Source: Candidatus Cloacimonadota bacterium (GTDB lineage Bacteria; Cloacimonadota; Cloacimonadia; Cloacimonadales; TCS61). Taken from it: a stretch of DNA of 41,787 nt. Positions 19,660-32,157 of the stretch are shown here, piece after piece. The stretch lies in contig JAFGRJ010000008.1 of the NCBI GenBank assembly GCA_016935235.1, positions 1 to 41,787 on the forward strand. Direction: 5' to 3'. The translations under genes were made by a program, and so were the position numbers. Below the pieces are notes generated by a model. The model was given only the letters and a program-made list of their open reading frames with translations. It ran no database searches and had not been told where the DNA came from. The first letter of the stretch is position 1, and every line of letters starts with the position of its first letter.

Positions 19660-21468
19660 TTATTCTATTTGTAGCTGTATTATCTTTTTTTTTCCAGGAT
19701 GGAAAATAAACCTGTCAATACCTTTTGCAGCACGGAATCCATCAGCTATGGCACTGATTGCATCAGCAGTATCATTCACAATATCACCTCCGGCGAAAAC
19801 CTTGGGATCGGTTGTCTGACCGTATTCATTGACTTTTAGCCTGAATTTACTGAATTCTATCCTGTCCAGATACTCTTTTGGCAGGAAAGAAAAATCAGGA
19901 CCTTGACCAATAGCCGTAATGATATTATCAATAACCATATCATGCAATTCACCTTCGATTGGTGCTGGTCTGGGTCTCTTATTGCCCTTTTCTTCGATCA
20001 TCTCGGCCTTGTTCCAGATGAAACGGAGCTGGCCATTTTTGGTTATTCCGATCTGCACCGGAATCGCTTTAGTGATGAATTTGATACCTTCTTTTCTGGC
20101 ATCGCTGATTTCCTCTTTATCTGCCGGCATGTCTTCCTCCCGGCGCCGGTACAGAATCGTTACTTCGGCACCCAGGCGTCGTATAGTCCGGGCTGCATCC
20201 ATGGCTGTATTGCCACCCCCTATTACTGCTACCTGTGACCCCATTTTTGGTCTTTCCCCCCGTGACACTGCCTCCAGAAGCTGAAGTCCGGGAATTATAC
20301 CCGGCAGTTCCTCTCCCGGGATTTCCAGCTTATAGGGGATATTCAGTCCAGTAGAAAAGAATATCGCATCGTAATCTCTGTAGAGATTGTTAAAAGAAAC
20401 ATCTTGTCCCACCCGGGTGCTGTAATGGATCAGGACTCCCAGTGAAAGAATATAATTGATATCTTTATCAAGCTGTGCGGGAGGTACGCGGTAATCGGGG
20501 ACTCCCCACCGTATCATTCCACCAGCCTTATCACTGGCTTCGAAAATTGTAACCTGGTATCCCATCGTTACCAGATAATAGGCAGCGCTTAAACCACCAG
20601 GTCCTGCTCCAATAATGGCAACTTTTTTTCCATTGGCAATGATCTCTTTCATCAGGATATGATAAAAATCCCCGGGGTCAATCTGGTCGATGATATATCT
20701 TTTCAGCCAGCGGATCGCAATAGGCTCTCCCGTTACTCCCAGAGCACAGACATCCTCGCATTTATGGGTACAGATTCTTCCACAAACTCCCGATAGAGGG
20801 TTTGTCCGGTAAAGCAACTGCAAAGCTTCTGTTAAATCATTCTCACGGACGGCTCTGATATAATCCGGTATATCCATATGAGCCGGGCAGGAAGCAACAC
20901 ATAAACCACATTCTACACAACGCATTGCTTCTTCCTTGGCCTGTTCTCGGGAGTAACCCTTCACTATCTCCACAAATGATTGCCTCCCTTCTCCCGCTGA
21001 CAGACTTTCCATCCTGAGTCTTTCAAGGTGTAGTAAACCGTAATCCTGGCTGCGATGGTAACCTTTCGCTTCGTCATTCCACGGCTTATCGTCCCATCCA
21101 GGAATAAAGCGGAATGTATCACCATCCTCATCGATCCAGATATAATGGTTGGACATGGTGAGTGATTGAGAAGGACATATATCAACGCAGAGAGCACACC
21201 AGCAGCAACGTCCGTAGTCTATCTGTGGTCTCAACCCGCTGTTTTCCATAGTTGTTTTGATGCCTGCAACGGGAACCATATCAATGGCTGCATTTTGACA
21301 AATTGATTCGCAGGTGCCACAGCCAATGCATTTTTTGAGATCATTTCTGTGGAATCCACGATATCTTGAAGTTCCAGGACGGTCCCGCAGTGGTTCTTTT
21401 GTCGTATAAGGTTTTTCAAATGCTCTTTTCCAGACATAGAAGGGTGACAGATTGTCTTTCAGGCTCAT
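19660..21468 (-). CDS. MBX-type complex: NuoI-like ferredoxin fused to GltD/SudA-like FAD-NAD(P)H oxidoreductase
   Basis: 602-residue fusion. The N-terminal third is a NuoI/MbxN-like ferredoxin with two 4Fe-4S motifs, CIGCGTCESIC near residues 47-57 and CCWCALCVDICP. The remainder is a GltD-family domain with further Cys groups (CVECGLCVASCP, and CGRICTHKCEDVC). It has an FAD motif IIGAGPGGLSAAYYL and an NAD(P) motif VIGGGNTAMDAARTIRRL followed by YRRREEDMPAD, typical of NADPH-linked members. The C-terminal FAD-closing element is VFAGGDIVNDTADAISAI. As the last gene of the MBX operon it probably links the ferredoxin chain of the membrane arm to NAD(P)H. The start is ATG at 21468 after a GAGAGG site. 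Confidence 0.93.
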   Translation of the reverse strand: MSLKDNLSPFYVWKRAFEKPYTTKEPLRDRPGTSRYRGFHRNDLKKCIGCGTCESICQNAAIDMVPVAGIKTTMENSGLRPQIDYGRCCWCALCVDICPSQSLTMSNHYIWIDEDGDTFRFIPGWDDKPWNDEAKGYHRSQDYGLLHLERLRMESLSAGEGRQSFVEIVKGYSREQAKEEAMRCVECGLCVASCPAHMDIPDYIRAVRENDLTEALQLLYRTNPLSGVCGRICTHKCEDVCALGVTGEPIAIRWLKRYIIDQIDPGDFYHILMKEIIANGKKVAIIGAGPGGLSAAYYLVTMGYQVTIFEASDKAGGMIRWGVPDYRVPPAQLDKDINYILSLGVLIHYSTRVGQDVSFNNLYRDYDAIFFSTGLNIPYKLEIPGEELPGIIPGLQLLEAVSRGERPKMGSQVAVIGGGNTAMDAARTIRRLGAEVTILYRRREEDMPADKEEISDARKEGIKFITKAIPVQIGITKNGQLRFIWNKAEMIEEKGNKRPRPAPIEGELHDMVIDNIITAIGQGPDFSFLPKEYLDRIEFSKFRLKVNEYGQTTDPKVFAGGDIVNDTADAISAIADGFRAAKGIDRFIFHPGKKKIIQLQIE

Positions 21469-21471
21469 CAA

Positions 21472-22641
21472 TTACCTCTCAATTTCAGGGGGATAAGTAT
21501 GCAGGGATATCATCAAACCGTGAATGTCAGCTATGTTGGTATTAATTGCCAGTTTTTCCAGAACTTTTACCGCATGAGTATAGCTGGGACCACGCACATA
21601 AATGCGGCGTGGGCATTCAGTGCCATCGGTAACGATGTAATAGCCATATTCACCCCGTGTGGATTCAGCTTTCACATAAGTTTCACCCGGGGGTATCTTC
21701 CAGTGGAGTACATTGGGGAGAGGCTGGTGATAATCTTTCGCAGCAGGCATACGGGAGATGATCTGACGGATCAGGTCAATTGACTGCTTCATCTCCTTCC
21801 ACCTCAACCGGGCGCGGTCGTATACATCTGAGTCATTACCTGTTATAATATCAAAATCGAGTTGATCATAAATAAGATATGGAGAATCCTTTCTTATATC
21901 CCTTTTGAATCCGGCTGCTCTGGCATTGGGTCCGACAATGCCATATTTATCAACCATGTCGGGTGTTATTATACCCAGTCCCTTGCTTCTCATTTTGAAT
22001 ACGGCATTATTGAAAAGTACTATATCGATCTCTCTTAACAACTTTTCTGTGTCATGCAGGGTTTTTTCCAGGCGTCTGCTGAAACCAGCAGGCAGATCAT
22101 CTCTCACTCCTCCTGGTATGATGTATAAATGATAAATTCTGCCGCCGCTGATCTCTTCGAAAAGATCCAGTATGAAATCTCGGTGGGCAAGGGACCATTG
22201 TCCCACTGTACCCATTCCAAAAGCAGCTGCCTGACCTCCGATCCACATCAGAAAACTTGTCAGGCGGGACATTTCCAGGGTCAATGTCCGCAACCATTTT
22301 GCCCTTTCCGGAACTTCAATTCCAGCCAGTTCTTCAATACCAGCCGCGTAAAGGTATTCATTGGTATCTGGTTCCGGTACGCAGATGCGACAGACGATGG
22401 TAAAACCCTGAATATATTTGCGCCTCTCCAGCAGTTTCTCAAAACCACGGTGCAGATATCCGACGTGGGTTTTAAGATCTACAACCTCATCCCCGCTTAA
22501 AATGATTTCCAGAGACATGTTTCCAGTTACACCTGGGTGCTGCGGTCCTTGCCAGATTTTTACAAATTTCTGGGAATCCAGGTCAATGATAGGTTTCCCG
22601 TTTCTGATTTCAGGATATTTACCCCTGTCTGCTTTTAACAT
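21472..22641 (-). CDS. mbxL: MBX-type complex large subunit, NuoD/MbxL-like
   Basis: 389-residue member of the complex I 49-kDa/[NiFe]-hydrogenase large-subunit family. Family features include QGPQHPGVTGNMSLEI near residue 31 and CRIC at about 84-87. True [NiFe] hydrogenases have two CxxC pairs, RxCGxC near the start and DPCxxCxxH at the end. Here the N-terminal motif reads RICVPE, so one ligand is Glu, and the C-terminus (MISLHTYPPEIER) has no Cys. A NiFe centre is therefore not expected and the protein is not a hydrogenase. This matches MBX/MBS and complex I subunits. It is placed between the DUF302 gene and the NuoI-GltD fusion. Confidence 0.93.
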   Translation of the reverse strand: MLKADRGKYPEIRNGKPIIDLDSQKFVKIWQGPQHPGVTGNMSLEIILSGDEVVDLKTHVGYLHRGFEKLLERRKYIQGFTIVCRICVPEPDTNEYLYAAGIEELAGIEVPERAKWLRTLTLEMSRLTSFLMWIGGQAAAFGMGTVGQWSLAHRDFILDLFEEISGGRIYHLYIIPGGVRDDLPAGFSRRLEKTLHDTEKLLREIDIVLFNNAVFKMRSKGLGIITPDMVDKYGIVGPNARAAGFKRDIRKDSPYLIYDQLDFDIITGNDSDVYDRARLRWKEMKQSIDLIRQIISRMPAAKDYHQPLPNVLHWKIPPGETYVKAESTRGEYGYYIVTDGTECPRRIYVRGPSYTHAVKVLEKLAINTNIADIHGLMISLHTYPPEIER

Positions 22642-22657
22642 GTGCTACCTCAGAATA

Positions 22658-23143
22658 TTATTCTTTACTGAGATCTTTGAGGATCTTTTCATCATCGGCT
22701 GCTACCAGTTTGAGAATTTTGCCGATGTCCCCACTGAACATCTTGCTGAATAAACCAATATTCATGCGACTCAGGAAAACATTGCCCTCATTGTCTTCAA
22801 AAATCGCAATGCGGCAGGGCATTATGGCTGAAATTTTACGGTTATGATGATCCTGAAGAATACTGTAGGTATATTCTGGCTGACAGAAGGAAATAACATT
22901 CACCCGCAGAAACATCCCTTCATAACCCATATTGTATAGGTCCTCACCAATTTCGTAAATATGCCGTACTTCCCAGTTGTTGCTGTAAATCTGCTGTTGC
23001 AGTCGCGAGAGTGTCTCCTCAAAATCATAACGGCTTTCTACAACTTTCAGCATTAATCCGGGCATTGTCTTCCATGTAATAATTCCGGTTACAGCTATAC
23101 CCAGGATAAAGCCTGAAACTAAAAACAGGACTACCTTTTTCAT
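22658..23143 (-). CDS. Membrane-anchored DUF302 protein inside the MBX operon
   Basis: 161 residues: an N-terminal membrane anchor (about residues 4-24), then a DUF302 domain. Family-like stretches are SRYDFEETLSRLQQQI, FCQPEYTYSILQDH and MPCRIAIFEDNEGNVFLSRMN. DUF302 function is not established; domains of this kind are often found near sulfur or redox proteins. Two cysteines (in SFCQPE and MPCRI) could be relevant. It overlaps the NuoC-like gene as ATGA and precedes the NuoD-like gene by 16 bases, so it is co-translated with the complex. It is not part of the standard MBX set and may be an assembly factor or extra subunit; that is inference. Confidence 0.82.
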   Translation of the reverse strand: MKKVVLFLVSGFILGIAVTGIITWKTMPGLMLKVVESRYDFEETLSRLQQQIYSNNWEVRHIYEIGEDLYNMGYEGMFLRVNVISFCQPEYTYSILQDHHNRKISAIMPCRIAIFEDNEGNVFLSRMNIGLFSKMFSGDIGKILKLVAADDEKILKDLSKE

Positions 23144-23679
23144 CTTTCTTCCCCTTGCTCAGGATATATTTTACTTTTCATGAATTTTCTGGGATCATGG
23201 CTCTTTCTGCCTGTCCGTGGAAAATAAGTTCTTTCCGAATATTTCAGGGTATCAAAATCACGCCGCAGAGGTGGTATATCCTCCCAACCTTCGAGAATGA
23301 AGTTCTGGTCAATTTCCGGGCTACCAGGAAAATCTATGCCGAACATCTCTTTCAATTCCCTCTGATAAGTGGACGCATGTTCCCAGAGATGATGAATGGA
23401 AGTCATCACCGGTTTCTGTCTGTTGATCATGACTCTGATACCAAGGCTGAAATTGAACCCGTGGTTGTGCAACATGTAATTCAGTTGAAACTTGTTCTCT
23501 TCAATCCAGTCCACTGCTGTAAGAAAAACAAGATGACTGAAATTTTCCTGATTGCGTAAATAGGTAATAAGGGATACTGCCTGTTTTTCAGGAACAGTCA
23601 GGAAGATCAGATCTGCTCTCTGCATGGTAACATTTTTAATTCTGAAATTCGCTTTTAATCTGTCTATCAGTTTCGTCAT
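23140..23679 (-). CDS. mbxK: MBX-type complex NuoC/MbxK-like subunit
   Basis: 179 residues, complex I 30-kDa subunit family, part of the hydrophilic module that docks NuoD-like and NuoB-like proteins. The signature QRELKEMFGIDFPGSPE, at about residues 108-124, is the classic ERE-x-x-x-x-FG-x-x-F of NuoC. The following LEGWEDIPPLRRDF matches the usual ending. It lies 8 bases from the NuoB-like gene and overlaps the DUF302 gene. Confidence 0.92.
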   Translation of the reverse strand: MTKLIDRLKANFRIKNVTMQRADLIFLTVPEKQAVSLITYLRNQENFSHLVFLTAVDWIEENKFQLNYMLHNHGFNFSLGIRVMINRQKPVMTSIHHLWEHASTYQRELKEMFGIDFPGSPEIDQNFILEGWEDIPPLRRDFDTLKYSERTYFPRTGRKSHDPRKFMKSKIYPEQGEER

Positions 23680-23687
23680 TATTTGAC

Positions 23688-24320
23688 CTACCAGTTATAA
23701 TCCGGCATATTCCAGTCTTTTATAATCTTTTTCTGGTTTGCCTTATACCAGTCGAAATTTTCAGCATAAAGATTAGCTCCTTCAGCCTTCCCGGATTTAA
23801 TGAGTTGCTTCAGTTTTTTAAAACCGGCGATAATTGCTTCCGGTCGCGGCATGCAACCCGCAATATAAATATCAACAGGTATATATGCATCTATGCGGTT
23901 AATTGTATTATAGCTGTCCCAGTACATTCCTCCGTTGATGGTACAACTGCCCAGAGCTAAGACGAATTTGGGATTCTGCATCTGTTCATAACTGCGGATA
24001 ATTCTTTTCAGAGTCTTCACCGAACAGTATCCGCCGATGATAATTACCGAAGACTGCCTGGGTGTCGGACGGGGAGCTATCCCGTACCGGAACACATCAT
24101 AACGAGCGGTCATTAAAGGTCGGAGTTCAATGGCTCCGCATCCGGTTCCATAAGCCAACATCCATATGGAATTGGCACGAGCCCAGTTGAGAAATTTTTC
24201 CCAGAAACCTTTAAAAGGATGTCTTATTCGGGGTCTGGCATCACAGAAAAGATATTTTTCATGCTCGGGAAGACCTGCATTGGCAAGTTTCTGCGGTTGA
24301 TTCTCCTGATTCTTCAACAT
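23688..24320 (-). CDS. mbxJ: MBX-type complex NuoB/MbxJ-like subunit
   Basis: 210 residues, the subunit carrying the 4Fe-4S cluster closest to the active site. Likely ligands are C61 (YGTGCGAIEL), C99 (GGYCSVK), C126 (LGSCTINGG) and C156 (AGCMPRPE). The first position is a single Cys-Gly and not the Cys-Cys pair of complex I, as in related hydrogenase-like small subunits. The N-terminal 50 residues are an extension rich in charge. It sits between the NuoH-like and NuoC-like genes. Confidence 0.93.
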   Translation of the reverse strand: MLKNQENQPQKLANAGLPEHEKYLFCDARPRIRHPFKGFWEKFLNWARANSIWMLAYGTGCGAIELRPLMTARYDVFRYGIAPRPTPRQSSVIIIGGYCSVKTLKRIIRSYEQMQNPKFVLALGSCTINGGMYWDSYNTINRIDAYIPVDIYIAGCMPRPEAIIAGFKKLKQLIKSGKAEGANLYAENFDWYKANQKKIIKDWNMPDYNW

Positions 24321-24335
24321 CTTGTCTCTCCACTA

Positions 24336-25256
24336 TCAGAGTTTCTGGAAAATAACAGCAAGGATACCCAATATGGTCGGTATTCCCAGAAAAAATCTGA
24401 TTGATTGTTCAGTCCGGAATCGGGGGAAAGAAACCCCGACAATTACTGATAACATGTAAATAGAAAATGTTTTGATAATGAGGATGAGTATGTTAGTGGC
24501 ACCACCAAAATACAGATTCATGAAAAGCACCAGTTTTGCCAGGTTGAAAATAGCCCGGTTTGTTTGCAGTAATCCAAGATAGGCACTGTGAAACTCGGTT
24601 GGTGGACCAATGGGTATCTCCTGGGGAGCAAGCACTATATCAAATGGTGAATGCATATTCATGCCTAACAGGGCTATCAGTGCTGCCACTGTGGCCAGAG
24701 GATTGGTAAACACAGTCCAGTGCAGGATACCGCCCTGCTGGGCAGACACAATACCTGTTATGGATAATGTCTGGTATTGTATCGCCAGGGAGATGACAGA
24801 AAGAGCAAAGGGAACTTCGAAAGCAGTCATCTGGGCTAATCCCCGGCTTACAGCTATGGCACTGTAGGGGTGACCACTTTCTCCCGCTCCCAGTGCCATT
24901 CCCAGCTGACCAAAAAAGAAAAAATACATTACCAGCAGCAGGTCACCACTGAAACTGAAATTGGCAAATACCTCAGATCCGTGGATAGCTGGAATGAAAA
25001 GGTAGGTACCAATTCCTCCAGCTATGCGGAAAACCGGTCCCAGAAAGAACATTGTCCCATGGTAGATCATGGTTCTCTTGGCATTGTTCTTAATAATATC
25101 TATAAAGGGCTGCCATAGGGGAGGACCGAACCTGCCATGAACTCTAGCAACGATTTTCATGACCAGACCGTTCAAAGTTAAACCATAAATTGTTATAACC
25201 AGGAGGGATATGAAAGCGTATGCGATGATCGTTACAGTCTCTTGCAACATTATCAA
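24336..25256 (-). CDS. mbxM: MBX-type complex NuoH/MbxM-like membrane subunit
   Basis: 306 residues with about eight membrane helices, family of NuoH/HyfC/MbhM that connects the peripheral arm to the membrane arm. Recognisable stretches are KIVARVHGRFGPPLWQPFID near residue 36, ESGHPYSAIAVSRGLAQMTAFEVPF and LAPQEIPIGPPTEFHS. The start overlaps the antiporter gene as ATGA. Its position before the J, K and L subunits matches the MBX gene order, where M precedes J; in MBH hydrogenases M comes after L. Confidence 0.94.
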   Translation of the reverse strand: MIMLQETVTIIAYAFISLLVITIYGLTLNGLVMKIVARVHGRFGPPLWQPFIDIIKNNAKRTMIYHGTMFFLGPVFRIAGGIGTYLFIPAIHGSEVFANFSFSGDLLLVMYFFFFGQLGMALGAGESGHPYSAIAVSRGLAQMTAFEVPFALSVISLAIQYQTLSITGIVSAQQGGILHWTVFTNPLATVAALIALLGMNMHSPFDIVLAPQEIPIGPPTEFHSAYLGLLQTNRAIFNLAKLVLFMNLYFGGATNILILIIKTFSIYMLSVIVGVSFPRFRTEQSIRFFLGIPTILGILAVIFQKL

Positions 25257-28200
25257 ACTCCCGCCAGTATATAGATCAAAACAACCATAAACACTATGTG
25301 CAGGGCATAAGTCTGACCATTACCTGTATAAATATTCCGTAGCACTCCCGCTATAGTATGACACCATTCACTCACCGCAGCCCAGAATTTGCTGACAAGT
25401 GGAGTGACCAGGAATCCCAGTGCTTTCTGATAATGAGGGAAAAAGTTATGGGCAACATGGGTCGTTTCCGGTTTGTCAGGACGCTCCGCTGCGTATACTA
25501 TATTGAACTGCTTGACCTTTTGCATAGATCGGACGCGCAGCAACAGCCCAATCAGAGGTATCATGAAAACCCCCATGGTAATTATCATAATTACGTTGCC
25601 ATTCCAGTAACCCAGTGAACTCATCAGGGTGTTGCCTTCCCAGCTGAGGGTTGCAGGAATGAAGTCCGCCATAACCTGGGCAATTGGTTCTATGATGATA
25701 TTTGGAAACAGCGATATCAACATGATCAGGGCAATGAGAACATACTGGGGAATAAGAAACCATAGGGAGGCTTCCTTAACCTGACGGAATCTGGTTTTCT
25801 CCTGCCCCAGAAAAATAGAGTGGATGAGCCGGAAACAGTACAGAAAAGCCACTGTACTGGCAAAAAAGGCTAATGCTGCCTGCAAATACCATTCCTTTTC
25901 CAGCAGAGCATTGTATAATAACCACTTACTGCCAAACCCGGAAAGTGGAGGCACCCCCGAAAGTGCTATAATGGAGATCAAAACAGCAAGAAAACTCAGG
26001 GGCATTCTGTTGATCAGTCCTCCCATCTCATACATCTTTCTGGTTCCCAGACGTTGAATTATCCCAGCTGCTGCCAGAAAAAGAATACCCTTGAAAAAGA
26101 TATGATTGAAAGCCAGGTATAAAGCTGCTGTCCAGCCTAGATGACTATACAGGGCTAATGCCAATACTATGTAGCCGACCTGTCCCATGCTGGAATAAGC
26201 CAGCATATATTTAAGATCTTCCTGAAATATGGCGAACAAGGCCCCCAAAAATGCTGTTAGTACTCCAATCCAGCCTAGAATAGTATTCAATTCGGTGTTG
26301 GCAGCGAATGATTTGCCCATGAGCAGGAGTACCAGCAACAAACCCAATATCCCGGTTTTACTTAAAATGGCTGAAATAATGGGAGAAAAATCATCTTCAG
26401 TCTCAGCATAAGCACCAGGCAGCCATATATGTACACCCACTGCACCTGTTTTGATCAGAAATCCTCCAACTAAGAGAATGTAAATGGTTATCTGAGAATT
26501 GCTGGAACCAAGAATTCCCAGGAAAGTGCTGCCTGTAACCGCATAGCTGTAAGAAAATCCCGCCAGTATCATTAACGCACCTGCCAGTGAGAATACCAGG
26601 TACAGCAGAGCTGTATCAAAGCGTTTAACACCTCTCAAAATAATAAGATAAGTGGCAACGGTTATCACCTCCCAGGAATAGAAGAACTGCAAACTGGTGT
26701 GGGAAGTAAGTAAATTACCCAGAGAAAGAACGATCAGAATGAGTAATTCAAAATAACCGTTTCTATATCCCGGTTTATTCATGGCAGCAATCATGAATAG
26801 CGCTGATAGCGGAAAGAATATGATAGCAAATAATCTATATAAGCCACTTAATTCAGGTAACAGAAAATAGAAATAGAACATGATAATAAAAATGGTCATG
26901 AGAGCTTTTAATTTACCCGGGATCAGCTTCAGCGCAAAAATCAGAGTAGCGATCAGAATCGGTAATAACATGTTGAAATTGAATCCACTCAACAAATTCA
27001 TCATGGTGAGACTGATAAAGAACATCAGGAAAGTACCAGTGAAAATAGGCAGTAAGCTACTTATTCTAACCCGAATTCCAGTAGTCAGTTCTGATTTCAT
27101 AATCAAGCCAAACCAGCGGAAGAAATAAACTGCTTCCAGAAGTGTCCCCAGCATTATGAAACCCAACCATAGAAACTGCTTATGTTGAGCAAGTTGCATA
27201 GCAATATTCCACTTGACCCAGAAACCGGGAAAAGGTGGTAAACCAGCCAGTGCCATCAGCAAACAGGCAAATATGAACAGCAGTGAAGGATATTTCCTGA
27301 GAACGGACCAACTGGACAAAGATTCTCCTTTTATCAAACCTGATATCCAGAAAAGTCCTGCTTTCGCTAACAGGTGATTGATTAGTAATCCTCCCAAGAT
27401 TATCCAGATCGTTGTAAGCCCTGTCACCGGTGTGCTATGCAGTAATAATGCACTTAAACCAACCAGCAAACCTATCTGCGCAATAGAAGAATATCCCAGT
27501 AAGCGATTGGCCTTTACCTGTTTCAAACCCATCAGGTTCATTAATACGTATGTCATTATACCAATTCCGGCAATAATTGAAGATAGAGAAGGAGACCAGA
27601 GCGGTAAAAGCTTATAGGCGGCAAAAAACATGGCAGATGAACTTCCGCCAGCAATTATGGCTGCAATACCTGGATCAGAAGCTGTGTAAATGTCCAATGC
27701 CCAGCCATTGACAGGAAATTGTTTCAATTCAACGATAATTGCTGAAAGAAGCATTATCAATGCAATACTGCCGGCAGGACCAACAATCTTATATCCGCTG
27801 GCAATCATTACATCAATATTGAGTGTGCCAGTTAAATAATATAAATAAATTGTACCAATCAGGAATAATATCGATGCTATTCCACTGGCAATAATATACT
27901 TGAATCCTGCAGTTAAATTTTCACTGCTTCCGGATAACGTGATCAGGCTGTAAAGTGAAATTGAAGTTATCTCCATAAATACAAAGAGGTTGAAAAGGTC
28001 CCTGGTCATAATTATTCCATTCAGACCCATAATGAAGACTAAATATAAGATCGGACCATAGACCGTACCTCTGAAATGGTGTAACAGGTAAAAAGCCCCC
28101 ATTATACCTAATAAATTGATGATAGTCATCAGAAAAGCTTCTTCGATGCCTATCTGCAGATTGATGGAGATAGGAGGGAGAAAACCGGCAGTGAATACCT

Positions 28201-28375
28201 GAGCGGTAGAACCTCCCTTTAATAGATGAATGAGCCATGGTATGGGAAGATAAAAGGAGAATAGCAGCACAGTGAAGAAAATGAAAACCTGCCACCTGTT
28301 TAGGTGCTGATGTAGTGAACCCATCAAGAAAGCTGCAACAGGAAGGATAATGAACAAATATATGGGTTCTACCAT
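25253..28375 (-). CDS. Double antiporter-like subunit (fused MbxH and MbxH', MrpD/NuoN-M-L type)
   Basis: 1040-residue membrane protein with two Proton_antipo_M modules in one chain. The first (about 1-500) has GIIMTRDLFNLFVFMEITS and ELKQFPVNGWALDIYTASDPG. The second (about 510-940) has FLIKTGAVGVHIWLPGAYAE and PIISAILSKTGILGL, with the expected Lys and Glu in channel helices. A C-terminal tail (about 950-1040, VLRNIYTGNGQTYAL) resembles that of HyfB/NuoL-like subunits. MBX/MBS complexes of Thermococcales have two separate H subunits; here they are joined. No internal stop or start site divides the frame. The start overlaps the MnhC gene by 7 bases and the stop overlaps the NuoH gene. Predicted to move H+ or Na+. 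Confidence 0.93.
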   Translation of the reverse strand: MVEPIYLFIILPVAAFLMGSLHQHLNRWQVFIFFTVLLFSFYLPIPWLIHLLKGGSTAQVFTAGFLPPISINLQIGIEEAFLMTIINLLGIMGAFYLLHHFRGTVYGPILYLVFIMGLNGIIMTRDLFNLFVFMEITSISLYSLITLSGSSENLTAGFKYIIASGIASILFLIGTIYLYYLTGTLNIDVMIASGYKIVGPAGSIALIMLLSAIIVELKQFPVNGWALDIYTASDPGIAAIIAGGSSSAMFFAAYKLLPLWSPSLSSIIAGIGIMTYVLMNLMGLKQVKANRLLGYSSIAQIGLLVGLSALLLHSTPVTGLTTIWIILGGLLINHLLAKAGLFWISGLIKGESLSSWSVLRKYPSLLFIFACLLMALAGLPPFPGFWVKWNIAMQLAQHKQFLWLGFIMLGTLLEAVYFFRWFGLIMKSELTTGIRVRISSLLPIFTGTFLMFFISLTMMNLLSGFNFNMLLPILIATLIFALKLIPGKLKALMTIFIIMFYFYFLLPELSGLYRLFAIIFFPLSALFMIAAMNKPGYRNGYFELLILIVLSLGNLLTSHTSLQFFYSWEVITVATYLIILRGVKRFDTALLYLVFSLAGALMILAGFSYSYAVTGSTFLGILGSSNSQITIYILLVGGFLIKTGAVGVHIWLPGAYAETEDDFSPIISAILSKTGILGLLLVLLLMGKSFAANTELNTILGWIGVLTAFLGALFAIFQEDLKYMLAYSSMGQVGYIVLALALYSHLGWTAALYLAFNHIFFKGILFLAAAGIIQRLGTRKMYEMGGLINRMPLSFLAVLISIIALSGVPPLSGFGSKWLLYNALLEKEWYLQAALAFFASTVAFLYCFRLIHSIFLGQEKTRFRQVKEASLWFLIPQYVLIALIMLISLFPNIIIEPIAQVMADFIPATLSWEGNTLMSSLGYWNGNVIMIITMGVFMIPLIGLLLRVRSMQKVKQFNIVYAAERPDKPETTHVAHNFFPHYQKALGFLVTPLVSKFWAAVSEWCHTIAGVLRNIYTGNGQTYALHIVFMVVLIYILAGV

Positions 28376-28722
28376 TTCAGTTCCCTGTATTTATCAATAT
28401 TAAGTGTTCTTTTTCTTTCATAAATTCGTACCGCATATACCAGCATCAAAGCAGTAACAGCCAGACCGATAACTATAGCCGTTAATACCAATGCAGAAGG
28501 TATGGGATCAACAAAGTGTTTGGATAAGTCACCGACACGCATGCCTTTTTCCAGAATGGGAGCGGTTCTGCCTGGTAAATACCCAAGATTGACTATTATT
28601 AAATGAATTCCGGAATCAATAATTGTAAAACCGATGATAATTCTGAGAATATTCTTGCGTGTCAGCATAGCCCAGAATCCCAGAAGTACTAGTGCAAAAC
28701 CAAGAAAAGCCATTTCTCTCAT
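28369..28722 (-). CDS. mbxG: MnhC/NuoK-like antiporter subunit (MbxG)
   Basis: 117 residues, three membrane helices. The family element IIIGFTIIDSGIHLIIVNLG resembles the NuoK/MnhC core helix, and DPIPSALVLTAIVIGLAVTAL is the typical C-terminal helix. It lies just after the MnhB-like gene, with AAAGGGG as ribosome binding site, and overlaps the double antiporter gene. It is part of the ion-translocating membrane arm. Confidence 0.93.
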   Translation of the reverse strand: MREMAFLGFALVLLGFWAMLTRKNILRIIIGFTIIDSGIHLIIVNLGYLPGRTAPILEKGMRVGDLSKHFVDPIPSALVLTAIVIGLAVTALMLVYAVRIYERKRTLNIDKYRELKW

Positions 28723-28724
28723 TC

Positions 28725-29408
28725 TCAGTCCCCTTTCAGATTATTCAGGATACCTACCAGTTCCGACCCGACCTTCAATCCGATAAATGAGTAAATCAGA
28801 GGAATGGCTCCAGCGCTGATCAATTCGCCCCATTTCCCCAGCGGCAGGAACCTGCTATCAAGAAAACCACCTGCCAGTATTAATCCTGCTAAACCTGACA
28901 GAACATAGAAAAAGCCCGAAATCGATTCGATGAAATGCAGTTTCCGGACCTTGATCCTGCTCTCGGGTCTGGCTAGAAACTGCAACAGAAATCCTGATGC
29001 TATTACCACACCGCCCTGAAAACCTCCCCCGGGAGTCAAATGACCATGAAGAAAAATATAAGTGCCTGTAAGAATAATAACCGGCAGCAATACATCCGAA
29101 CCAGTCCGGAGGATTTCCGAAGCGGGATTACTTTTGGGATATGCTTTTTGACGTTTCTGCATCAGAAATCCCACACCGGTGGCTGCCAGAAATAGAACGA
29201 TCACTTCGCCCAGTGTATCGAAACCACGGTAGGCAACCACCACCGCGGTAACAAGGTTAGCACTTCCCACTTCCCGGGGGCCTTGGTCAATATACCTGCT
29301 GGAAAGAAGGTCCAATCTGTTTCTAGGTGCAGTATTTTTTTGCAGATTCCAGAATATTAAAAAGAGGAGAATAAGGAGAATTATGATGACAAAATACTTA
29401 GCCATCAT
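28725..29408 (-). CDS. mbxF: MnhB-like antiporter subunit with N-terminal MbxE-like segment
   Basis: 227 residues. The N-terminal ~80 residues contain NLVTAVVVAYRGFDTLGEVIVLF, a MbhE-like stretch that corresponds to the C-terminal region of MnhA in classic Mrp. The rest is the MnhB domain with LPVIILTGTYIFLHGHLTPGGGFQGGVV, the family signature. In MBH hydrogenases E and F are separate genes; here they are fused. The start overlaps the MbxD gene by 11 bases; a second ATG follows directly at 29405. Confidence 0.9.
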   Translation of the reverse strand: MMAKYFVIIILLILLFLIFWNLQKNTAPRNRLDLLSSRYIDQGPREVGSANLVTAVVVAYRGFDTLGEVIVLFLAATGVGFLMQKRQKAYPKSNPASEILRTGSDVLLPVIILTGTYIFLHGHLTPGGGFQGGVVIASGFLLQFLARPESRIKVRKLHFIESISGFFYVLSGLAGLILAGGFLDSRFLPLGKWGELISAGAIPLIYSFIGLKVGSELVGILNNLKGD

Positions 29409-29652
29409 TCCTCTCCCTTATCCGCCTGATTCTGTTATATGCATAAAGAAAAACCATGGTTGTTAAACCAGAACCGATGGCTGCTTCCGTCATGGCAACA
29501 TCAGGAGCTGCCAGTAGCAGAAACAGGATACTCACCAGTAGACTGATAACACCGGTGCTTATGATCGCGGTGACAATATTTCGGGCATAGATGGCCAGAA
29601 TCGCTGCCAGTAAAATGATGATACCTAATATATAGAAAGATACCATTATCAT
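29398..29652 (-). CDS. mbxD: MbxD-like (DUF4040) antiporter subunit
   Basis: 84 residues with three hydrophobic helices. The stretch LLAAPDVAMTEAAIGSGLTTMVFLY is the conserved DUF4040/MnhA C-terminal signature (PDVA-x-TEA), containing the Glu thought to lie in the ion path. Start and stop both overlap neighbours, MnhG upstream and the MnhB fusion downstream. Confidence 0.91.
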   Translation of the reverse strand: MIMVSFYILGIIILLAAILAIYARNIVTAIISTGVISLLVSILFLLLAAPDVAMTEAAIGSGLTTMVFLYAYNRIRRIRERNDG

Positions 29653-29987
29653 TTTTGCTCTCCCTTTTTTTTGTCTGCATCGAGATCATCTCTTACAGTG
29701 GTGCTGGTTAAACGGATCCCGGCAGCGTGAGCAGCCCGGGCAAGAGCATGCGATGATATCGGATTGGTGAATATGATGAAAATCACCAGTAATATTATTT
29801 TCCCGGTACAAAGACATCCAGCATTACCTATTGCCAGCCCCAGGAGAAAAAGCATGCTGCCCAGAGTTGTTGCCTTGGTACCTGCTTGCATGCGGTTATA
29901 TACGTCAGGCATGCGGATGATACCTAAAGTACCTAGAAATAGAAAAAGTGCTCCCGTCAAAGACATGAATGCTCCTACGATATCCAT
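29649..29987 (-). CDS. mbxC: MnhG/MrpG-like antiporter subunit (MbxC)
   Basis: 112 residues, three membrane helices. The signature is GTLGIIRMPDVYNRMQAGTKATTLG near residue 19, followed by the FTNPISSHALARAAH ending typical of MrpG. A clear AGGAG ribosome binding site lies upstream. The C-terminal tail is charged (DADKKKGEQK) and overlaps the next gene by four bases. Confidence 0.93.
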   Translation of the reverse strand: MDIVGAFMSLTGALFLFLGTLGIIRMPDVYNRMQAGTKATTLGSMLFLLGLAIGNAGCLCTGKIILLVIFIIFTNPISSHALARAAHAAGIRLTSTTVRDDLDADKKKGEQK

Positions 29988-30008
29988 AATCTTTCTCCTG
30001 TAGATGGA

Positions 30009-30281
30009 TTATAATCCCTTGTCGAGAAAACGGGCAACAGCAATCACACCCAGAAAACTGATCAGTGCATATACTATTGCCACATCCAGATATACCTTCC
30101 GTTGCAGAAGCAAAGTAAGAAATGCAATCAGGGAAATGGTTACCAGGGTCATGGCGTCGAGGGCAACAGCCCGGTCGGCAATGGTTGGACCGATAATCAT
30201 TCTTAAGAAAGCTGTCACCATGGCTCCGAGAGCGATCAGGGCAGACACGTTGTAGATTATTTCTGTTAGATTGTTACCCAA
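30009..30281 (-). CDS. mbxB: MnhF/MrpF-like antiporter subunit (MbxB)
   Basis: 90 residues with three membrane helices. The conserved MIIGPTIADRAVALDAMTLV is the MrpF signature, and the C-terminal SFLGVIAVARFLDKG is also typical. It overlaps the MnhE gene by 8 bases and is followed by MnhG after 21 bases. Confidence 0.93.
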   Translation of the reverse strand: MGNNLTEIIYNVSALIALGAMVTAFLRMIIGPTIADRAVALDAMTLVTISLIAFLTLLLQRKVYLDVAIVYALISFLGVIAVARFLDKGL

Positions 30282-30762
30282 AAATCACCTCCAGGTACTT
30301 TTCAAAACGAGATACAATGGCGTCGGTGGCTTCGTTGATATCACCAGCTGTAACGTCGATCCAGTGAATATAGAAATAATCATCGCGCGTTTCTACGGTT
30401 AATGTACCCGGAGTAAGGGTGATGGAATTAGCCAATATAAGCCTGCCCAATTTGGATCTGAGCTTCGTCCTTACTTTAACTACTCCGGGATTAATGGGCA
30501 GATCGGGATTCAAAACTCGCCTGGCAACATCCAGATTGGATTTAACAAGTTCAAATAAAAAAGTGATGATGTACATTAATAAATAGAATATGGCTCTGGG
30601 GGATAATTTTACCGAGGATAACACCCTGGCTCCTCCCGGCATCAAAAGCGACAGAACCAGACATACGATTGCTCCCGCCAGAAGCTCACTTGTTTCTAAA
30701 CCGGTTAGCATCATCCAGATGATAAACAGGAAAAGGTAAAGTAATAATAAGCCTTTTATCAT
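30274..30762 (-). CDS. mbxA: MnhE/MrpE-like antiporter subunit (MbxA)
   Basis: 162 residues: two or three N-terminal membrane helices and a cytoplasmic C-terminal domain. The family block LILANSITLTPGTLTVETRDDYFYIHWIDV (quoted here only as LTPGTLTV with IHWID) is intact, as is FELVKSNLDVARRVL. The start at 30762 is preceded by AGGATGG; it lies 3 bases from the tetR stop, so the regulator and complex are on one transcript. Confidence 0.93.
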   Translation of the reverse strand: MIKGLLLLYLFLFIIWMMLTGLETSELLAGAIVCLVLSLLMPGGARVLSSVKLSPRAIFYLLMYIITFLFELVKSNLDVARRVLNPDLPINPGVVKVRTKLRSKLGRLILANSITLTPGTLTVETRDDYFYIHWIDVTAGDINEATDAIVSRFEKYLEVIFG

Positions 30763-30764
30763 GT

Positions 30765-31415
30765 TCAAACCATCCTTGTATCGCCAGCCAGAAAGGAACA
30801 TATTATATCGAACATGAATTTGATTATATGAGGGTAATCCAGTTCCTTCTCAGTTGACGTTAAATTATCATTGATAATTTGACCGGGCATTAATCCAGTA
30901 TGGTTATCCCAGATAATATGGGATATTATCATGGGATCTGCTTCCCGGCAAATGGAACCATCTCCGATGCCTTCCCGGATTATGTCTGCTATATATTGGT
31001 TGATCCTGCCGAAAAGTTCCATGCTCCTGATTGATTCATCTCCTGTCTGATCGCATTTCCAGCGGTTGAAACGAAAATTCATGATTACCTGATGATATTG
31101 AAAATGAATTCTGGCAAATTCCTCATAAGTCGTGACAAATTTCTTTAACTTATTTAACCCCATTAGCTTGTTATCTTCCCTGTTGATGATCATGTTGAGC
31201 AAGGTTTGTAATCCCCTTCCCATAATGGCAGAGCATAATTCGGTTTTGTTCTTGAAATATAGATAAAGGGTACCTTTGCTTAATTCAGATTCCTGGGCGA
31301 TAGCATCCATAGTGGCATTCTCGAAACCCTTCTGAAAAAAGAGTTTTTCTGCAGCGTCGATAATCGTCTGTCGCCGAATCTGCTTTTCTCTTGCCTTTCT
31401 TTCTCTGATACTCAT
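30765..31415 (-). CDS. TetR/AcrR-family transcriptional regulator, first gene of the MBX operon
   Basis: 216 residues. The N-terminal HTH (about residues 14-60) has TIIDAAEKLFFQKGFENATMD and ELSKGTLYLYFKNKTEL, both textbook TetR elements. The ligand-binding half is helical and not recognised further. The start was set at ATG 31415, which has a GGAG site 4 bases upstream; ATG 31427 lacks one. Two tandem palindromes overlap the promoter just upstream, so autoregulation, and with it control of the downstream MBX genes, is likely. The inducer is unknown. Confidence 0.92.
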   Translation of the reverse strand: MSIRERKAREKQIRRQTIIDAAEKLFFQKGFENATMDAIAQESELSKGTLYLYFKNKTELCSAIMGRGLQTLLNMIINREDNKLMGLNKLKKFVTTYEEFARIHFQYHQVIMNFRFNRWKCDQTGDESIRSMELFGRINQYIADIIREGIGDGSICREADPMIISHIIWDNHTGLMPGQIINDNLTSTEKELDYPHIIKFMFDIICSFLAGDTRMV

Positions 31416-31429
31416 GTCACTCCACATAA

Positions 31430-31462
31430 ATGACTTTGAGTCATCTGATGACTTTCAGTCAT
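31430..31462. promoter_or_regulatory. Tandem palindromic operator of the TetR-MBX operon
   Basis: Two 15-bp palindromes, ATGACTTTGAGTCAT (31430-31444) and ATGACTTTCAGTCAT (31448-31462), are separated by CTG and repeat with an 18-bp period; a third half copy, CTGATGTCA, follows. Such inverted repeats with TGAC half sites are typical TetR operators. They lie 15 to 47 bases upstream of the regulator start. The repeat is seen; binding by this TetR is inferred. Confidence 0.75.
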
Positions 31463-31506: not shown

Positions 31507-32157
31507 TTAAAGGTATCTTTTCAGCTTCTCAGTTAGATCTTTACTCAATATGAGCTGTAATTTATTATAAATATTTGGATAAAGCTCTTTCAGACGGTTG
31601 AGGATATTGAGATGCCAGATGATGCAGAATGTATTTTCCAGGGCAACAACATCTGCTGAAGGAACTTTGCCAGTAAGAAAGCTCATTTCAGCGATGAAAT
31701 TCCCGGTGATGAGATCAGCCACCGGTTTATTTGATTTCAACACTCGGGCTCTCCCCCTGGTAATCAATATGAGTTTATTCAAAACAAGTCCATCAGCGCA
31801 GAAAAGTTCATCTTTTTTTACCTCGCTTGTTTTACCCATATTCCACAATAATCTGAATTCTTTTTTAGTCATATCGGTAAAAACAAGCTGATAGATTCTT
31901 AGTAATTCAGGCTCCAGTTTTATCTCACGGTTTTCGTGGAGGATGCGGATAATCTGGATGGTGTTGATGACTACAAAGAGTGATATCCAGCTGATGATGA
32001 ACTTGTTGGCAGCCATAATAGCCTGCAGAATCATGCAGATGCCTGCCAGGATCATGATCACCCGTAACCAGAGAATATCCTTGACTAGGAATGCAACGGC
32101 TACACCTGCATAATAGGCATTGAGCAGGATTATCTGCAGCATTGATTCAGAAGGCAT
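31507..32157 (-). CDS. Membrane protein with Popeye-like cyclic-nucleotide-type domain
   Basis: 216 residues: about three membrane helices (about 8-75), then a cytoplasmic beta-roll resembling Popeye/CAP-family nucleotide-binding domains. The helical linker HENREIKLEPELLRIYQLVF and the segment LILITRGRARVLKSNKPVADL are typical. The phosphate-cassette equivalent reads GNFIAEMSFLTGKVPSADVV: the usual FGE is FIAE and the Arg that binds the cyclic phosphate is Ser. Cyclic nucleotide binding is therefore doubtful. The start has a GAGGTGCA site. No HTH is present, so it is not a CRP regulator. It stands alone between the TetR-MBX operon and two divergent small genes. Confidence 0.75.
   Translation of the reverse strand: MPSESMLQIILLNAYYAGVAVAFLVKDILWLRVIMILAGICMILQAIMAANKFIISWISLFVVINTIQIIRILHENREIKLEPELLRIYQLVFTDMTKKEFRLLWNMGKTSEVKKDELFCADGLVLNKLILITRGRARVLKSNKPVADLITGNFIAEMSFLTGKVPSADVVALENTFCIIWHLNILNRLKELYPNIYNKLQLILSKDLTEKLKRYL

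Follow-up and report, generated by a model that had tools for sequence, protein, structure and literature searches.

A membrane-anchored DUF302 protein encoded in an MBX operon of Cloacimonadota, a candidate envelope metal/thiol protein

The MBX operon of the window and its DUF302 gene

The stretch of DNA that was analyzed, referred to here as the window, comprises 41,787 nucleotides from a Candidatus Cloacimonadota bacterium (contig JAFGRJ010000008.1) and carries the MBX operon detailed in Table 1. An earlier note on this DNA had described a membrane-anchored DUF302 gene lying between the NuoC-like and NuoD-like genes and overlapping the former. The open reading frame coordinates and the Pfam matches of the neighbors agree with this placement, and the minus-strand letters confirm the ATGA overlap, from which translational coupling of DUF302 with nuoC can be inferred. 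On the other side, the NuoD-like gene starts 16 nt 3' of the DUF302 stop.

Table 1 Features of the MBX operon and of the DUF302 protein in the window.
Feature	Position	Strand	Basis or detail
TetR-family regulator, operon head	30765..31427	-	PF00440
Two perfect palindromes ATGACTTTNAGTCAT, 18 bp apart	31430..31462	.	just before TetR gene
Mrp subunits B, B', G, F, E	28725..30801	-	ORFs labelled by sequence and operon order
NuoK/MrpC-like subunit	28369..28722	-	PF00420
Fused MrpD/NuoM-type antiporter pair	25253..28375	-	PF00361 twice; NCBIfam subunit N then M
NuoH-like subunit	24336..25256	-	PF00146
NuoB-like subunit	23688..24320	-	PF01058
NuoC-like MBX subunit (Complex1_30kDa)	23140..23679	-	PF00329, 6e-26
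ATGA overlap, nuoC-like stop / DUF302 start	23140..23143	-	sequence read
Membrane-anchored DUF302 gene	22658..23143	-	161 aa, ATG start; ORF list, Pfam
DUF302 protein parts			helix ~residues 4-25; DUF302-fold domain ~32-155; C87 and C110 (MPCR motif)
NuoD-like MBX subunit (Complex1_49kDa)	21472..22641	-	PF00346; best solved relative 6u8y_L
NuoI-type 2[4Fe-4S] and NfnL/GltD-like FAD/NAD(P) oxidoreductase fusion	19660..21471	-	PRK13984, Fer4, Fer4_20, Pyr_redox_2

The NuoD-like protein matched Pyrococcus 6u8y_L with an E-value of 7e-98, against 4e-42 for 6cfw_L of the hydrogenase MBH, and a CxxC scan found a single motif (CRIC, residue 84) and none near the C-terminus. Since NuoD is nearer to 6u8y_L and the NiFe cysteine set is incomplete, the operon was assigned to the MBX/MBS type rather than to the hydrogenases. 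The core in common with Pyrococcus MBX/MBS (6u8y) consists of the Mrp subunits and the NuoH-, B-, C-, D- and I-like subunits, while the window operon has in addition DUF302, the fused MrpD pair and the NuoI-NfnL/GltD fusion. The order of the Mrp B, B', G, F and E orthologues is kept across the phylum. The MrpD/NuoM pair forms one ORF of 1040 aa in the window and is encoded by separate genes in a divergent MBX type (L105-L110). The NuoI-NfnL/GltD fusion, the last MBX subunit, has a full-length PRK13984 match as its best NCBIfam model, and almost every MBX operon of the phylum contains it. Such a fusion suggests that the window MBX is linked to NAD(P)H.

The palindromes at the operon head are probable operators of the TetR gene. 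A probable operator, ATGACCATCGGTCAT, is also retained ahead of an orphan DUF302 gene in genome G084. The operon is adjoined by a gene for a POPDC (PF04831) membrane protein with a cyclic-nucleotide-binding domain (31507-32157, minus strand), which stays in place in relatives without MBX.

DUF302 is a widespread family for which we know of no settled function. The window protein passes the gathering cut-off of the PF03625 profile (34.1 bits against 23, E 2.5e-8) and also has the DUF302 fold: in an AlphaFold2 model built on 17 relatives (mean pLDDT 87), the top solved structures retrieved by Foldseek were 7tj1 (E 5e-10), 1q9u (E 2e-8) and 1j3m (E 7e-6), with a probability of 1.00. It differs from these solved PF03625 proteins in its N-terminal membrane anchor, a single helix with a 19-residue hydropathy peak of 2.7, against at most 0.98 elsewhere in the protein. 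Pfam, fold and the one helix together bear out the identity given in the earlier note. Residues G11 and G15 of the helix are conserved in the anchored DUF302 subfamily. Weak matches to the CrcB fluoride transporter were set aside, as these were DUF302-fold proteins bearing a CrcB label.

The two cysteines, whose conservation the earlier note had proposed to check, proved invariant: C87 and C110 are kept in 87 of the 87 relatives with residues at those positions, the count for C110 being biased because this residue is part of the search pattern that fetched many of the relatives, so that C87 is the fairer test. With the same bias for C110, the pair represents conserved candidate ligands for a soft metal. 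Both cysteines are present in the alignment of 1q9u with the window protein, whereas the aligned sequence of 7tj1 contains neither.

In 55 of 84 sequences of the anchored subfamily, the net charge preceding the helix exceeded that following it, and in 18 the reverse held. This bias favors an N-in/C-out topology, but in the window's own NuoC|NuoD clade the helix is also followed by basic residues, which weakens the argument. The DUF302 domain is likely but not certain to be extracytoplasmic, facing the periplasm, in agreement with the lipoprotein character of the HMA-domain neighbors described below. If the topology is right, the domain lies on the opposite side of the membrane from the NuoB/C/D/I arm. 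The earlier note had read the mid-operon position as a link to the electron-transfer module, and the predicted side of the domain, opposite to NuoB/C/D, speaks against that reading.

Occurrence of DUF302 within and outside MBX operons

The phylum sample comprised 125 genomes, all draft assemblies. Homologues of the window DUF302 were found in 21 of these (E ≤0.01), and orthologous MBX operons, with NuoD about 60% identical or more, in about 38. Both were present in 10 of the 125 genomes, a slight excess over expectation (Fisher p 0.024, relatedness ignored). Junctions were counted in the 36 readable MBX operons with NuoD at least 60% identical. The NuoC|NuoD junction was closed in 31 (-21 to +47 nt) and held DUF302 in five, which belong to five genera of one family. 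NuoC-NuoD spacing with the gene was 500-824 nt in the window, G079, G086 and G070; in the fifth carrier, G080, the DUF302 gene is split over two contigs, one with NuoC and the other with NuoD. No DUF302 was found in genome G066 (98% complete), and its operon is nested among those of the carriers (95% support), indicating that MBX is maintained without the gene. Absence from the MBX operons of close relatives, which the earlier note regarded as pointing to chance insertion, is therefore found at the closed junctions, including that of G066, and is not found in the five genera.

A second slot was identified between MrpB and MrpC/NuoK, or directly before NuoK, in G122, from another family, and on contig C419 of G070. 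The DUF302 genes at this slot form one clade (100% support), far from the NuoC|NuoD clade. Since G070 has a single NuoD match, and its MrpD pieces on two unjoined contigs are both nearest to family-f1 operons, its two DUF302 genes probably share a single MBX operon. By a rough, post hoc estimate (about 12 junctions, about 2,000 genes, two entries among about seven DUF302 lineages), the probability of two entries into MBX by chance is below 0.001, ignoring any general preference for redox operons. Because two slots were entered from two distant clades, the association exceeds one chance insertion and looks real. Near the second slot, in L040, a hairpin (CTCCCGAAA...TTTCGGGAG, L040:4441-4480) lies inside the operon between the DUF302 gene and nuoK, and is a possible attenuator. 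An apparent nuoK duplication beside the same gene was considered as an insertion scar and rejected as an assembly artefact, as a run of N is present there.

These occurrences are consistent with an MBX accessory subunit or assembly factor restricted to this lineage, which would sit on the periplasmic side of the membrane arm (the Mrp/NuoH part). In favor of such a role are the shared slot in five genera with its tight spacing, the ATGA overlap in both the window and G079, the second slot occupied from a distant clade, and the slight excess of co-occurrence. The 31 MBX operons without DUF302 at the junction argue against it, as does the cytoplasmic location of the NuoC/NuoD module, where the DUF302 domain is predicted not to be. 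To our knowledge, the solved archaeal MBX/MBS complex (6U8Y) is also complete without DUF302.

Further evidence against this role comes from genomes in which the gene and the complex are separated. In G085, all MBX genes are gone, and an intact DUF302 gene lies between a POPDC-like gene and lipoprotein/LysM genes, which are the flanks of the window operon. G084 retains only 31 residues of nuoD and a broken NuoI-GltD gene, beside an intact DUF302 at the same place. No NuoD match was found elsewhere in G085 or in G084, the latter only 73% complete, and no HMA domain was found in either, though DUF302 is retained. A DUF302 of the same clade lies at an unrelated place in G092 (96% complete), which has no MBX. 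Conversely, G082, G087 and G089 hold an MBX operon without DUF302 and a DUF302 gene at a separate place. The gene has moved between loci within the family of the window genome. Outside Cloacimonadota, no MBX genes were present near DUF302 within the fetched stretches of 80 DUF302 loci. The gene is neither general in MBX operons nor lost together with MBX (G084, G085). Given the closed junctions, the retention without MBX and the opposite-side topology, we think it unlikely that DUF302 is a core subunit of MBX or an obligate one; the same three observations led us to discard a contact with NuoC/NuoD deduced from gene order alone. The proposal of the earlier note, an accessory subunit or assembly factor, holds insofar as the gene is conserved in the operon of five genera and at two slots, and is weakened by the empty junctions and the MBX-less carriers; we consider it unlikely overall.

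An unrelated GxxExxY-type gene was found in the same NuoC|NuoD junction of divergent MBX operons (L106:7162-7605 and L109:8385-8870). Because this slot tolerates insertions, gene position is weak evidence, and DUF302 could be a passenger that landed in a permissive junction and has stayed only because it is harmless. Its movement between loci within the family would fit such an origin. However, the reading frames are intact and the motifs invariant across genera, and identity between carriers is 56-61% for DUF302, level with the 57-61% of NuoC. The gene was also retained while the adjoining MBX genes decayed, and a second entry occurred at another MBX slot. A passenger therefore appears improbable.

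Gene neighborhoods of the anchored two-cysteine subfamily

Neighbors were clustered for 73 DUF302 loci of the anchored two-cysteine subfamily. In 18 of the 73, the next gene downstream encodes a CopZ-like HMA lipoprotein (gap -41 to 93 nt); the HMA protein next upstream in one locus is an efflux permease, and at positions 2-4 on either side none was found in the 73 loci. Each of the 18 neighbors is a short lipoprotein bearing a lipobox and a CxxC metal motif, and their best models are CopZ and MerP/MerT; this signal is drawn mostly from two related Bacteroidales clades. DUF302 directly follows CoxB and heme O synthase genes in 10 Bacteroidales loci, and the pair of DUF302 and HMA lipoprotein lies 3' of oxidase/heme O synthase genes in L138, L139, L141, L146, L149, L151, L162, L169 and L179. 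Elsewhere the gene upstream of the pair encodes a cysteine synthase, a response regulator or an unrelated protein. As the upstream gene varies while the pair stays, DUF302 and the HMA lipoprotein constitute a stable unit. The Bacteroidales operon (coxB, heme O synthase, DUF302, HMA) resembles that of the window in placing the same subfamily in a membrane redox operon, but differs in that the cytochrome c oxidase contains copper whereas MBX is not known to.

In G082, G087 and G089, the separate DUF302 gene lies directly after that for an SO_0444 Cu/Zn efflux transporter, the C-terminus of which is a CopZ-like HMA domain. These SO_0444-linked proteins form the sister clade of the window DUF302 clade (100% support), but their genes are not part of the MBX operon that these genomes carry. 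The window genome carries a homologous permease (47% identical), likewise at a separate place. Since relatives without the complex kept the gene, and others carry it beside copper genes, DUF302 appears to work independently of MBX.

Among other relatives, those in Fermentibacteria have DUF302 after an ArsR regulator that carries a fused rhodanese domain, and in single loci DUF302 adjoins genes for thioredoxins, desulfoferrodoxin, an ACR3-like transporter or a hydrogenase maturation protease. Plasmid neighbors were uninformative, except for DsrE genes in Salinibacter. Two large neighbors examined as candidate copper ATPases were instead TonB receptor-like and NEAT/leucine-rich-repeat-like. In Bradyrhizobium, the locus number of the DUF302 gene blr5777 is next to that of ccoG/fixG (blr5778), and both genes are up in low oxygen (PMC6515984).

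DUF302 genes have also been described in sox clusters of Acidithiobacillia (PMC5037610), in a Sulfitobacter sox cluster (PMC11034169) and in the sqr operon of a Synechocystis plasmid (PMC5061849). Together with the rhodanese-fused ArsR and the invariant cysteine pair, they suggest periplasmic handling of sulfane sulfur (persulfide, thiosulfate, polysulfide), which would tie sulfur chemistry to MBX, itself related to the sulfur-reducing MBS of archaea. However, the DUF302 proteins of these three reports are not assigned to the anchored two-cysteine subfamily, copper/HMA neighbors are far commoner than sulfur genes among the relatives studied, and no sulfur gene adjoins DUF302 in the window operon. 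Copper/metal and thiol genes thus give a stronger neighborhood signal than sulfur, and although a sulfur link is possible, we regard sulfur handling as the actual function as distinctly unlikely.

Proposed role in the cell envelope

We propose that the DUF302 protein is a membrane-tethered periplasmic metal/thiol protein, the metal probably being Cu(I), which is co-expressed with membrane redox complexes and is not a core MBX subunit; we put the chances of this at about even. The proposal builds on the fold, anchor, cysteine conservation, operon position, neighbors and retention after MBX loss, as seen in the sequences, and adds to these the periplasmic side, metal/thiol binding, copper as the metal and the reason for co-expression. 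In the proposed mechanism, the one N-terminal helix would tether the protein in the cytoplasmic membrane with its domain in the periplasm, where the C87/C110 pair would probably either bind or exchange a soft metal, for which Cu(I) is the first candidate, or cycle as a thiol pair. The protein would thereby supply, sequester or protect metal/thiol sites of the cell envelope, and its relatives probably act alike where they are encoded next to CopZ-like lipoproteins, Cu/Zn efflux permeases and cytochrome oxidase genes. We favor copper as the metal, since the neighborhood is dominated by HMA/CopZ, Cu/Zn efflux and oxidase genes. Placement in the MBX operon would then reflect co-expression with a periplasm-exposed redox complex, MBX itself not being needed for retention of the gene. 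As far as we know, MBX contains no copper, which makes protection or shared expression more plausible than copper delivery.

Sco and PCuAC are periplasmic copper chaperones of oxidase assembly. Their likeness to DUF302 lies only in the proposed role, periplasmic metal/thiol handling beside a respiratory complex; no sequence or fold relation to the window protein was found, its fold being that of DUF302. As a broader and more tentative suggestion, on which we would not bet, anchored two-cysteine DUF302 proteins could be unrecognised envelope Cu(I)/thiol chaperones that are paired with CopZ-like HMA lipoproteins and recurrently recruited to operons of membrane redox complexes, including MBX, which they would shield against damage by metals or thiols.

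A position inside the operon of a respiratory complex can mislead, as DUF302 outlived MBX in relatives of the window genome. The second entry into MBX operons nevertheless suggests that the complex does benefit from the protein without depending on it, and the neighborhoods provide one DUF302 subfamily with a specific, testable hypothesis, namely metal/thiol handling in the cell envelope.
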